Source of the DNA: Tepidimonas fonticaldi
GTDB taxonomy: Bacteria; Pseudomonadota; Gammaproteobacteria; Burkholderiales; Burkholderiaceae_C
Assembly (NCBI RefSeq): GCF_007556755.1
Contig: NZ_VJOO01000006.1
Location: forward strand, 1-64,000
Reading direction: 5' to 3'
DNA length: 64,000 nt
Shown here: one piece after another, positions 9,142-13,563 of the stretch
Numbering within the stretch: the stretch's first letter is position 1
Layout: each line of letters begins with the position of its first letter
Position numbers and translations under genes: made by a program
Notes under the pieces: model-generated
Seen by the model: the letters and a program-made list of their open reading frames with translations, nothing else
Told to the model about the DNA's origin: nothing
Databases searched by the model: none

Positions 9142-10293
9142 ATGGCCGACGATACCCCCTTTTTGCCCCCCGGCGACGGCGCAGCGGATGACGTGCTGCG
9201 CGCATGGGCCGAGCGCATCCGCGCCGCGGCCGCCGATCGCCGCCCCTTGCGTCTGCGCGGCGGCGGCACCAAGGCGTTCTATGGCGACCCCGTCGACGCC
9301 GAGGCCGAGGTCGTGGACACGCGCGCATACGCGGGCATCCTGAGCCACGAGCCGACCGAGCTGGTGATCACGGCCCGCTGCGGCACCCGGTTGAGCGAAC
9401 TGGAGGCCGCCCTCGCCCGCCACGCCCAGTATCTGCCTTTCGAGCCGCCGCACTTGGGCGAGGGGGCGACCGTCGGGGGCATGGTGGCGGCCGGCCTGGC
9501 CGGCCCGGCGCGCGCCGCCGTGGGGGGCGTGCGCGACTATGTGCTGGGGGCACGGCTGCTCAACGGCCGGGGCGAGGACCTGACCTTTGGCGGCCAGGTG
9601 ATGAAGAACGTCGCCGGCTACGACGTCAGCCGGGCGCTGGCCGGCAGCCTCGGCACGCTGGGGCTGATCACGGAGGTCTCGCTCAAGGTCCTGCCCCGGC
9701 CGGCCGGCGAAGCCACCCTGCGGCTGCCGCTGTCCGCCGACGCGGCCCTGCAACGACTGGCGCGCTGGCGCGCCCAGCCGCTGCCGCTCAACGCCAGCCG
9801 GTGGCAGGACGACGCGGGCGGCACCCTGCTGCTGCGGCTGCGCGGCGCGGCCGCCGCGGTCGAGACGGCCTGCCAACGGTTGCTGGCCGAGGTGGGGGGG
9901 GATCGGCTGGACCCCTCCGCCGCCCAGCGCGAGTGGGAGGCCACCCGCGAGCAGACGCTGCCCTTCTTTGCCACCCCGCCGTCGCCCGCCCATGGGCTGT
10001 GGCGGCTGTCGGTGGCGCCCACCGCCCCCGTGCTGGCGCTGCCCGGGCCGACGCTGGTCGAGTGGTTTGGCGGGCAGCGCTGGGTGTGGGCGCCGCTGGA
10101 TGCCGCGGACACCCTGCGCGCCATGGCCCGGCAGGCGGGCGGGCATGCGACGCTGTTTCGCGCCCCGGCCGCGACGCCGCAGGCGCGCGGCCGCTTCACG
10201 CCGCCCGAGGATCCGTTGCGCGCGCTGCAACAGCGCGTGCGGGCCGCGTTCGATCCGCACGGCCTCTTTCAGCCGGGCGTCTGGGGATTTTGA
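9142..10293 (+). CDS. glcE: Glycolate oxidase FAD-binding subunit GlcE
   Basis: A 383-residue subunit of the membrane-associated glycolate dehydrogenase that turns glycolate into glyoxylate. It has a PCMH-type FAD-binding fold, with LRLRGGGTKAFYG near residues 32-44, TARCGTRLSELE, GATVGGMVAAGLAGP and MKNVAGYDVSR, then a C-terminal substrate-domain segment ending HGLFQPGVWGF. The ATG at 9142 is chosen over one nine bases earlier because the preceding residues are unconserved. glcF follows after three bases. The catalytic partner glcD is not adjacent upstream as it often is. Confidence 0.92.
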   Translation: MADDTPFLPPGDGAADDVLRAWAERIRAAAADRRPLRLRGGGTKAFYGDPVDAEAEVVDTRAYAGILSHEPTELVITARCGTRLSELEAALARHAQYLPFEPPHLGEGATVGGMVAAGLAGPARAAVGGVRDYVLGARLLNGRGEDLTFGGQVMKNVAGYDVSRALAGSLGTLGLITEVSLKVLPRPAGEATLRLPLSADAALQRLARWRAQPLPLNASRWQDDAGGTLLLRLRGAAAAVETACQRLLAEVGGDRLDPSAAQREWEATREQTLPFFATPPSPAHGLWRLSVAPTAPVLALPGPTLVEWFGGQRWVWAPLDAADTLRAMARQAGGHATLFRAPAATPQARGRFTPPEDPLRALQQRVRAAFDPHGLFQPGVWGF

Positions 10294-10296
10294 TCC

Positions 10297-11571
10297 ATGC
10301 AAACCCGACTCGCTGCCGAGTTTTTGAGCACACCCGACGGCCAGACGGCCGACGCCATCCTGCGGCGCTGCGTGCACTGCGGCTTTTGCACCGCCACCTG
10401 CCCGACCTATCAGCTGCTGGGCGATGAGCTGGACGGACCGCGGGGACGCATCTATCTGATCAAGCAGGTGCTGGAAGGCGCCGAGCCCACCCGGGCGACG
10501 CAGCAACACCTGGACCGCTGCCTGACCTGCCGCAACTGCGAAAGCACCTGCCCGAGCGGGGTGGAGTACGGCCATCTGCTGGACATCGGGCGCAAGGTGG
10601 TCGAAGCGCGCGTGCAGCGCCCGGCGGGCGAGCGGGCGGTGCGCTGGCTGCTGCGCGAAGGGTTGACCTCGCCGCTGTTCGGCCCCGCGATGCGGCTGGG
10701 GCAGGCCGTGCGCGATGTGCTGCCCGCCCCGCTGCAGGCCAAGGTGCCGGCCCGGCGCGAGGCCGGCGCATGGCCGCAGACGCCCCGGCCACGCCGCGTG
10801 CTGATGCTGGCCGGCTGCGTGCAGCCGGCGATGATGCCCACCATCAACGCCGCGACGGCGCGCGTGCTGGACGCCGCGGGCATCCAGACCGTGGTGGCGC
10901 CCAAGGCCGGCTGCTGCGGCGCCATCCGCTTCCACCTGGACGACCAGGTGGGGGCGCTGGACGACATGCGCGCCAACATCGACGCCTGGTGGCCCTGGAT
11001 CGAACCCACCGATGGCAGCCCCGGCGTCGAGGCCATCGTCATGAACGCCTCGGGCTGCGGCGTGATGGTGAAGGACTACGCGCACGCGCTGCGGCACGAC
11101 CCGGCCTATGCCGACAAGGCGCGCCGGATCAGCGACCTGACGCGCGACCTGAGCGAGCTGCTGCCCGACCTGGTGCCCGCCTGGCGGCAGCGGCTGGGCG
11201 ACGGCCTGCCCGCGTCGGTGCCCCGGCGGCTGGTGTTTCACCCCCCCTGCACGCTGCAGCACGGCCAGAAGCTGCGCGGCGGCGTGGAGCGGCACCTGGG
11301 CGAGCTGGGCTTCGAGGTCACGCTGGCACGGCAGGAGTCGCACCTGTGCTGCGGATCGGCCGGCACCTACAGCGTGCTGCAGCCGACGCTGAGCCGCCAG
11401 TTGCGCGACCGCAAGCTGGGGCACCTGGAAGCCGCCGCCCCCCAGACGATTGTGTCGGCCAACATCGGCTGCATCACCCACCTGCAAAGCGGCACCGCCA
11501 CCCCGGTGCGCCACTGGGTGGAGGTGGTGGACGAGGCCCTGGCCGCCAGCCCTGCACGGACCCCAGCCTAG
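10297..11571 (+). CDS. glcF: Glycolate oxidase iron-sulfur subunit GlcF
   Basis: A 424-residue iron-sulfur subunit that passes electrons from GlcDE to the quinone pool. Two 4Fe-4S motifs are intact: cysteines 25, 28, 31 and 35 (CVHCGFCTATCP) and 76, 79, 82 and 86 (CLTCRNCESTCP). Two CCG-type cysteine-rich motifs follow, AGCCGAIRF and LCCGSAGTY, characteristic of the GlcF/HdrB-like C terminus. It is translationally close to glcE (three-base gap) and 13 bases ahead of the LrgAB fusion, so the three probably share one mRNA. Confidence 0.93.
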   Translation: MQTRLAAEFLSTPDGQTADAILRRCVHCGFCTATCPTYQLLGDELDGPRGRIYLIKQVLEGAEPTRATQQHLDRCLTCRNCESTCPSGVEYGHLLDIGRKVVEARVQRPAGERAVRWLLREGLTSPLFGPAMRLGQAVRDVLPAPLQAKVPARREAGAWPQTPRPRRVLMLAGCVQPAMMPTINAATARVLDAAGIQTVVAPKAGCCGAIRFHLDDQVGALDDMRANIDAWWPWIEPTDGSPGVEAIVMNASGCGVMVKDYAHALRHDPAYADKARRISDLTRDLSELLPDLVPAWRQRLGDGLPASVPRRLVFHPPCTLQHGQKLRGGVERHLGELGFEVTLARQESHLCCGSAGTYSVLQPTLSRQLRDRKLGHLEAAAPQTIVSANIGCITHLQSGTATPVRHWVEVVDEALAASPARTPA

Positions 11572-11584
11572 CGCATCGCCCGCC

Positions 11585-12433
11585 ATGCTGCCCGCTCTGA
11601 CCGCCCTGTTGACCTTGCAACTGGCCGGGGAGGTGCTGGTGCGGATGCTGGGCCTGCCCATCCCCGGGCCGGTGCTGGGCATGGCGCTGTTGCTGGCGCT
11701 GCTGATGGCGCGCCCGGCCTGGCGCGACGCCTTGCAGCCCACCACCCAGGGCCTGCTGCAGCATCTGTCGCTGCTGTTTGTGCCGGCCGGGGTGGGGGTG
11801 GTGCAACACCTGCAGCGGCTGGGAGACGAGGCCGTGGCCATCGCCGTCGCGCTGATCGGCGGGCTGTTGACCCTGACCGGCACGCCCTACGCCACGTATT
11901 TCGAAGGGGCGCAGTTCGTGCACTTTCTGCTCGGTCCGGCGACGGTGGCGCTCGCCGTCGCCCTGCACGCGCAGTGGCCGCTGCTGCGGCGCACCTGGGC
12001 ACCGCTGGTCGCAGGGCTGGTGACCGGGGCGCTGGCCGCGGCAGTGAGCGCCGTGGCGCTGGGCTGGCTGCTGGGGGCCAGCCCGCAGACGCTGGCCTCG
12101 CTGGCCCCCAAGTCGGTGACCACCCCGGTGGCGATGGGCATCGCCGAGCGCCTGGGGGGGCTGCCGTCCTTGACCGCGGTGCTGGTCGTGGTCACCGGCA
12201 TCTTGGGCGCGGCGACGGCGCGCTGGCTGTTCGAACGGCTGGGCATCGCCGACCCCATGGTGCGCGGCTTTGCCCTGGGCGTCACGGCCCACGGCATCGG
12301 CACCGCGCGGGCCTTTCAGGTCAGCCCCACGATGGGCGCCTTCGCCGGACTGGCCATGGGGCTGGCCGCCCTATTCAACGCCCTGGCCTTGCCCTGGCTG
12401 ATGCAGGGCCTGCTGGCGCTGCTGGCCCGCTGA
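11585..12433 (+). CDS. Compact LrgA-LrgB (CidA-CidB) fusion, candidate glycolate carrier
   Basis: A 282-residue integral membrane protein. Residues 1 to about 85 match LrgA/CidA (LPIPGPVLGMALLL, LLFVPAGVGVVQHL). From about 95 to the end it matches LrgB/CidB (GTPYATYFEGAQFVHFLLGP, LAPKSVTTPVAMGIAE, HGIGTARAF). LrgA is usually about 115-120 residues and LrgB about 230-240, so the last LrgA helix and the first LrgB helices are missing; the join lies near AVAIAVALIGG. The frame is open. LrgAB pairs are known as holin-like regulators and as pyruvate carriers, and the plant plastid fusion PLGG1 carries glycolate and glycerate. Placement 13 bases behind glcF suggests glycolate uptake. Whether the shortened form works is unknown. 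Confidence 0.75.
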   Translation: MLPALTALLTLQLAGEVLVRMLGLPIPGPVLGMALLLALLMARPAWRDALQPTTQGLLQHLSLLFVPAGVGVVQHLQRLGDEAVAIAVALIGGLLTLTGTPYATYFEGAQFVHFLLGPATVALAVALHAQWPLLRRTWAPLVAGLVTGALAAAVSAVALGWLLGASPQTLASLAPKSVTTPVAMGIAERLGGLPSLTAVLVVVTGILGAATARWLFERLGIADPMVRGFALGVTAHGIGTARAFQVSPTMGAFAGLAMGLAALFNALALPWLMQGLLALLAR

Positions 12434-12473: not shown

Positions 12474-13512
12474 TCACTGCGCGCGGATGCCGTTGCGCTC
12501 GATGATCGCCTTCATGCGCGCGGTGTCCGTGCGCACGCGCTGGGCCAGCCCCTCGGGCGCCGTGCCGGCCACCTGCCAGCCCTGGGCAAACAGCCTTTGG
12601 CGCACCTCGGGCCGCCGCACGATCTCGGCCAGCGCCGCGGCCACGCGCTGAATCTGCACCGCGGGCCAGGTCACCGGCGCGGCGACGGCGTTCCAGATTT
12701 CCAGATCGAAGCCGCGCAGGCCCAGCTCCGCCAGGCTGGGCACCTGCGGGGCCAGCGTGCTGCGCCCGGGGGAGGTCAACCCCACCGCGCGCAGCCGGCC
12801 CGCCTGCACCTGCGGCAGCGCCACGCCGGGCGGCAGCAGGGCCACCTGCACATCGCCCTGGATCATGGCCGTGACCACCTGCGGATTGCCCGAATACGGC
12901 ACATGCACGGCGCGCCAGCCCGCGGCGGCCTTGAGCATCTCCATCCCGATGTGGGCGACCGTGCCCGCCCCCGGGGTGCCGTAGTTCCAGCGGTCGCCCG
13001 CCTCGCGCCCCGCGGCCAGGACGGCGGCGGGCTCGGCCGGCAGCCGGGTCGAAGCCGTCAGCACCAGCGGCGCGGTGCCGACCAGCGACACCGGGGCCAG
13101 GTCGGTCAGCGGATCGTAGGGCGTGGCGGGGTTGAGGATCTTGGCGATGGTCAGATTGCCGTTGATCATCAGACCCAAGGTGTGGCCATCGCTGGCGCGC
13201 GCCACCTGCTCCGCGGCGATGTTGCCGCCCGCGCCCGGACGGTTTTCCACCACCACCGGCTGGCCGAGCACCTGGGCCAGCGGCTCGGCCAGGGTGCGTG
13301 CGGTCAGGTCGGGCGACGAGCCGGGCGGGAAACCCACCAACAGGCGCAGCGGCCGCGACGGCCAGCCGCCGGTCTGCGCGTAGCCGGATGCGGGCGACAC
13401 GGCAAGTGCGGCCCCCCCCCCAAGCCGCCGTGTGCAGCCAGGCACGGCGGGACAGCGGGACTGACTGGGCCAACTGGGCGAACGGGGCGGACGACGAACG
13501 GGACGAAACCAT
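12474..13512 (-). pseudogene. Bug-type (TctC) solute-binding protein, frameshifted at a G10 tract
   Basis: Periplasmic binding protein of the tripartite tricarboxylate transporter family. The mature part is complete: RLLVGFPPGSSPDLTAR, NRPGAGGNIAAEQVA and VPYSGNPQ are all typical. The start and export signal lie in another frame: ATG at 13512 with a GGAG site reads SRRAWLHTAAWGG, then the frame is lost at ten consecutive G (minus strand) at 13412-13421. Removing one G joins the signal to ALAVSPASGYAQ and gives a normal protein of about 345 residues. It is either switched off, phase-variable or a base-calling error. No tctA or tctB membrane genes are nearby, as is common for the many orphan Bug proteins of Burkholderiales. 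Confidence 0.75.
13412..13421. repeat. Ten-base C/G homopolymer inside the Bug-type gene
   Basis: A run of ten C on the plus strand (ten G in the coding sense) at the junction of signal peptide and mature protein. Nine would keep the reading frame open. Confidence 0.95.
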
Positions 13513-13563
13513 GGCGGGGTCTCCTCGGATGATGGGGTCACTTTCGGCCGCCGCCGGCGCCGC

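Follow-up and report, generated by a model that had tools for sequence, protein, structure and literature searches.

A compact LrgA–LrgB fusion behind glcEF in Tepidimonas fonticaldi, probably left by a recent deletion at a locus that is disappearing from the genus

The gene that follows glcE and glcF in Tepidimonas fonticaldi encodes LrgA and LrgB in one short chain. We consider it likely that this fusion is the product of a recent deletion of about 275 bp, that its protein is most likely inactive or impaired, and that its locus is being lost across the genus. The features of the window (the whole stretch of DNA analysed, 64,000 nucleotides) that matter here are the following.

9142..10293, + strand: glcE, glycolate oxidase FAD-binding subunit (NCBIfam NF008439, 467 bits, cut-off 284, equivalog)
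10297..11571, + strand: glcF, glycolate oxidase iron-sulfur subunit (NCBIfam NF008434, 685 bits, cut-off 333, equivalog)
11585..12433, + strand: lrgA::lrgB compact fusion, 282 aa (open frame; Pfam LrgA and LrgB)
11585..11845, + strand: lrgA-derived part, helices 1–3 and the start of helix 4 (G010 LrgA 86% over query residues 1–91; nucleotide comparison with G010 lrgA)
11835..11845, + strand: joint TGGCCATCGCC, common to lrgA (G010) and lrgB (G009) in the same codon phase (nucleotide comparison)
11835..12433, + strand: lrgB-derived part, helix 2 end to C-terminus (G008 LrgB 92% over query residues 83–282; nucleotide comparison)
12474..13541, − strand: TctC-family receptor gene (Pfam PF03401)

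The preliminary description had placed LrgA and LrgB in one 282-residue chain 13 nt after glcF, and this is borne out: the frame (11585–12433) is open over 282 codons, the gap to the glcF stop is 13 nt, and the two Pfam domains that define LrgAB/CidAB proteins both score over cut-off. LrgA (PF03788) covers residues 12–97 (E 2.3e-23), with the profile match ending at 86/94, and LrgB (PF04172) covers residues 82–273 (E 2e-70), corresponding to profile positions 21–212 of 214. For comparison, the intact genes of the congener G010 match profile positions 1–93 (LrgA) and 1–212 (LrgB). The complete helices of the family (four in LrgA; six plus two re-entrant in LrgB) are not all present in the fusion, as LrgB helix 1 is wholly absent and LrgA helix 4 largely so, and the near-invariant residues of LrgB helix 1 (WVYL, PL, LT, TL and Y) have been deleted together with the NP that comes next. 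The loss of the last LrgA and the first LrgB helix had been recognized beforehand and stands, with the end of LrgB helix 2 replacing the last helix of LrgA. The shortening had been put at about 70 residues relative to a separate pair and is in fact 94 relative to G010 (122 + 254 aa). The genome of the window, 100% complete in 88 contigs that total 3.0 Mb, yields a single hit with the fusion protein at E<=0.001, the fusion itself. The TctC receptor gene on the opposite strand separates the fusion from a downstream MFS gene, which in G008, G009 and G010 lies directly 3′ of lrgB.

A comparison of 11 Tepidimonas genomes, one per species, points to an ordinary two-gene ancestor. G010 has full-length lrgA and lrgB at the same place after glcF, and the join is found in one of the 11 genomes, that of the window. 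Two genes in relatives and a join in this strain alone had been named at the outset as the pattern that would speak against a carrier; at one genome per species this is largely what the genus presents, but a second fusion exists in another genus (see below). Other Tepidimonas loci are damaged in different ways. In G009, lrgA is cut by an in-frame deletion and lrgB carries an internal, out-of-frame deletion (L013 2976–3543), thus two separate events; G003 retains a short remnant in which the first LrgA residues are fused to the second half of LrgB; and in G008, lrgB is intact and the contig ends before lrgA. In G006, glcF is followed by the next gene with no lrgAB between, and the genus search gave no match to the fusion protein in G001, G004, G005, G006 or G007 (the last 88% complete). 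glcF itself is found in 10 of the 11 genomes, including these five, with G008 as the one miss; the glcF match of G001 (L128) is reported with one TAG inside. As judged from these genomes, lrgAB beside glcF is lost or broken in several Tepidimonas, and the locus appears to be under loss. In G002, glcD is immediately followed by a distant lrgAB pair, in the order glcD-lrgA-lrgB (L179 1333–3922), a second and separate link of LrgAB to glycolate oxidase.

The join seems to be young. In a glcF tree, necessarily without G008, the window genome has G009 as its sister (support 100/99), and in a glcD tree (6 of 10 loci parsed) the sister is G008. The lrgA end and lrgB start that the fusion has lost are still present in G009, so the join is younger than the split between the window genome and G009.

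Beyond the genus, we searched for further cases of the same architecture. At the family level, 208 of 399 genomes match (with at most six candidates scored per genome); among the matches listed, only the window spans residues 1–282, no other starts before residue 27, and the row starting there has an internal stop codon. From 562 confirmed stretches we took the 80 best; one of these is a compact fusion (L042), four are broken by contig ends, and 75 have lrgA and lrgB as two matches, including L056 with a broken lrgB. L042 belongs to the Burkholderiales MAG CSMAG_1189 (JAUVWL010000030.1); its fusion is 280 aa long, shares 73% identity with that of the window, is gap-free across the joint and likewise follows glcF, and it is the sole hit in that genome. 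A joint profile built from both fusions matched 149 of 399 genomes at the order level, 35 of 369 at the class level and 46 of 60 in the L042 genus. Among the matches listed, full coverage occurs only in the window and, in the search of the L042 genus, only in the L042 genome; some others start at columns 14–33, with open frames of at least 238 aa.

The two fusions are independent, since L048, a close relative of L042, has two genes. A shared origin by gene transfer was considered and ruled out, as the sequence on either flank of each joint agrees with that of the respective relatives, L042 having a DNA identity to two-gene L048 of 92% over glcEF and about 90% over the lrgA and lrgB parts. Looking for the same fusion point in relatives, as had been suggested, unexpectedly revealed a second origin of this join, again after glcF but in a different genus. 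Some features of these loci may be recorded here. About 130 nt (L042 5861–5991), containing GC-rich, inverted-repeat-like sequence, lie between glcF and the fusion in L042, and only about 11 nt lie between the glcF and lrgA matches in L048. In L056 (6183–6974), a Serpentinimonas MAG, lrgB follows glcF, with about 30 residues missing in the helix 1–2 region and a stop codon there. In L059 (4067–7115), a partial glcF match is flanked by two lrgAB pairs on one MAG contig.

Nucleotide comparisons show how the join was made. In register, lrgA of G010 reads GAG GCG CTG GCC ATC GCC GTG GCG CTG, lrgB of G009 reads AAT CCG GTG GCC ATC GCC ATT GCG CTG, and the joint in the window reads GAG GCC GTG GCC ATC GCC GTC GCG CTG. 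For the L042 case, lrgA and lrgB of L045 have TGGCCATCG in common at the same register. The distance between fixed anchors is 398 nt in G010, 404 nt in L048 and 123 nt in the fusion, corresponding to a deletion of about 275 bp between two copies of a short direct repeat, one in lrgA helix 4 and the other in lrgB helix 2. The layout in relatives is glcE-glcF followed by ordinary lrgA and lrgB, the latter probably encoding a pair that transports glycolate or another small hydroxy- or oxo-acid like it. Loss of the DNA between the codon-phased repeats has joined the two genes in frame, and the resulting chain, without the strongly conserved LrgB helix 1 and with opposed helices joined, would most likely be inactive or impaired. 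The fused frame would still look intact because the deletion is recent. The intact frame had earlier been taken to argue against recent decay, an argument that we find weak: the joint repeat has the same codon phase in both genes, and such a repeat can give an intact frame automatically after two genes are joined, so that the frame says little about function.

The repeat may account for the position of the joint in part. Exact runs in the fusion register average 5.4 nt versus 3.8 nt in the 16 other in-frame registers (75 parsed of 80 sequences), and the fusion register is the longest or tied-longest of the 17 in-frame registers at 25 of the 75 loci (5 of 23 when glcF-linked loci alone are counted). 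At none of the 75 parsed loci do lrgA and lrgB share a frame. With mismatch-tolerant scoring, the fusion register was the best in 3 of 41 parsed loci (80 sequences given). The longest repeat as the explanation of the fusion register is therefore partly supported by these comparisons, and the repeat is not a full explanation of the coincidence, because the same register arose twice and is so seldom the best by mismatch-tolerant scoring.

That coincidence lends support to the strongest rival explanation, which we nevertheless regard as unlikely: a functional, compact glycolate carrier in one chain, of new topology and selected in glycolate-oxidase operons. The same register was reached in two independent lineages, both times after glcF, which keeps a minimal carrier at a small chance; in both genomes the fusion is the sole match. 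The frames themselves also look well kept. Near-invariant columns were defined as at least 90% conserved in 76 LrgA and 79 LrgB rows. Outside the deletion, the window fusion changes none of 25 such columns in LrgA and two of 81 in LrgB, both of which are also changed in intact G008, and the L042 fusion changes none of 25 and one of 81. pN/pS over the LrgB part is low in both (0.116 for the window versus G008; 0.052 for L042 versus L048), as expected under either constraint or a recent event. Branch-polarised substitutions in the LrgB part are too few to speak for or against relaxed selection (synonymous/nonsynonymous: window 10/1, G008 27/1, L042 18/4, L048 21/0). The lack of any sign of decay within the fused frame, the low pN/pS and the repeated register all count against a deletion product.

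What speaks against a working carrier is, first, what the deletion has removed. Fifteen of the 94 near-invariant LrgB columns are gone (W17, V18, Y19, L20, P24, L25, L26, L28, T29, T31, L32, Y35, P49, N52 and P53), as are three of the 28 in LrgA (S93, T94 and A102). Moreover, the directions of the joined helices probably clash. According to the available text of PMC8396727, LrgA has four helices with its N-terminus inside, and LrgB has six plus two re-entrant helices with its N-terminus outside. In relatives, the LrgA C-terminal tail has a mean K+R of 3.66 (71 rows); the corresponding LrgB means are 0.62 for the N-terminal tail (29 rows) and 1.86, 0.34 and 3.33 for the loops TM1–2, TM2–3 and TM3–4 (79 rows each), the last having a K+R of at least 2 in 79 of 79 rows. 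These counts mostly agree with the published topologies. For LrgA, the charge evidence comes mostly from the C-terminal tail; the loop preceding helix 4, which the published topology places outside, is less clear (mean K+R 1.25 and D+E 1.62, versus 1.36 in the inner loop; 76 rows) and counts against this reading. Given the published topologies (PMC8396727, available text) and these charge counts, the joined helices are predicted to be oppositely directed, and the joint probably connects the first part of a helix running from outside to inside with the last part of one running from inside to outside.

Structure prediction also gives low confidence at the joint. The AlphaFold model of the fusion has a mean pLDDT of 81.3, with blocks of 51/37/53 over residues 61–90 (before and at the joint) versus 70/70/83 for the matching blocks of intact LrgA; LrgA and LrgB rows were unpaired in this prediction, which may by itself reduce confidence at the joint. 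No PDB relative was found by sequence at E<=0.1, and Foldseek gave no match at E<=0.001, the best being a GltPh entry at 0.8. Against a working carrier further stand the lack of any additional case in the genus, family, order, class or L042 genus, among the matches listed, and the five congeners that have glcF without any lrgAB match. Slightly less credible still is the bolder form of the idea, in which a compact LrgA–LrgB carrier evolved twice at the same residue in bacterial glycolate-oxidase operons, as a bacterial counterpart of PLGG1 without LrgB helix 1 and with LrgB upside down.

Also improbable is that the fused chain has lost transport and been kept for another role, for instance as an incomplete LrgA-like pore or as a partner in the membrane. 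Its retention of 25 of 28 near-invariant LrgA columns would suit such a role, for which we know of no case, but the LrgB part is about as well conserved as the LrgA part. An assembly error in a strain that has two genes is scarcely credible: the 88 contigs and the joint at a short repeat would allow it, but usual assembly word sizes exceed the exact repeat of about 11 nt, a join of this kind is also present in a second assembly (L042), and the other deletions in the genus (G003, G009) differ. Of the earlier alternatives, minimal carrier or deletion product, the two-gene locus of G010, the codon-phased repeat and the helix loss favour the deletion product.

The link to glycolate had been drawn from the fusion; it is supported, mainly for the ordinary pair. 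Among 76 loci with lrgA in view, glcF lies at most 1 kb upstream in 23, including the L042 fusion; one has glcF 3.6 kb off, and 52 are without any of glcDEF in the stretch. This linkage is mainly one of separate lrgA and lrgB genes (22 of 75 two-gene loci), which makes ordinary LrgAB a better glycolate-carrier candidate than the fusion; the glcD-lrgA-lrgB arrangement of G002 also supports it. Going by gene neighbourhood, the pair linked to glcEF probably has a glycolate role, and two-gene LrgAB adjoining glcEF in Comamonadaceae and relatives is a candidate bacterial glycolate carrier. Among the papers listed in an open-access literature search, no title is on a glcEF-linked two-gene LrgAB operon. 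As replacement carriers in Tepidimonas, GlcA/lactate permease (PF02652) was found in none of 11 genomes and the ActP model TIGR02711 gave only sub-cut-off matches, in all 11.

YohJK of E. coli belongs to the LrgA/LrgB families. In the available text of PMC7642389, it is a putative 3-hydroxypropionate transporter. The statement that bacterial LrgAB homologues move pyruvate agrees with the available text of PMC5626966, where PftAB of B. subtilis, formed by LrgA/LrgB homologues, transports pyruvate, and where the origin of PLGG1 is traced most likely to fused bacterial lrgA and lrgB homologues. The fused subfamily is treated as eukaryote-only in the available text of PMC8396727, so bacterial single-chain LrgAB proteins, even as deletion products, have apparently been little noticed.

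Compared with two-gene LrgAB/CidAB systems (PftAB, YohJK), the fusion comprises the same two Pfam families, in the gene order seen in G010 and at the same place after glcF, but it is one chain without the last LrgA and the first LrgB helix. It resembles the L042 fusion of CSMAG_1189 in joint register, sequence (73% identity) and position after glcF, yet arose in a separate event. With plastid PLGG1, a carrier of glycolate and glycerate, it shares LrgA and LrgB in one chain and a metabolic tie to glycolate. Eukaryotic fused forms have eleven helices with both domains complete (PMC8396727, available text), a number that fits 4+1+6 and would keep the orientation of LrgB, whereas the domains of the fusion are truncated, two helices short and without a linker helix.
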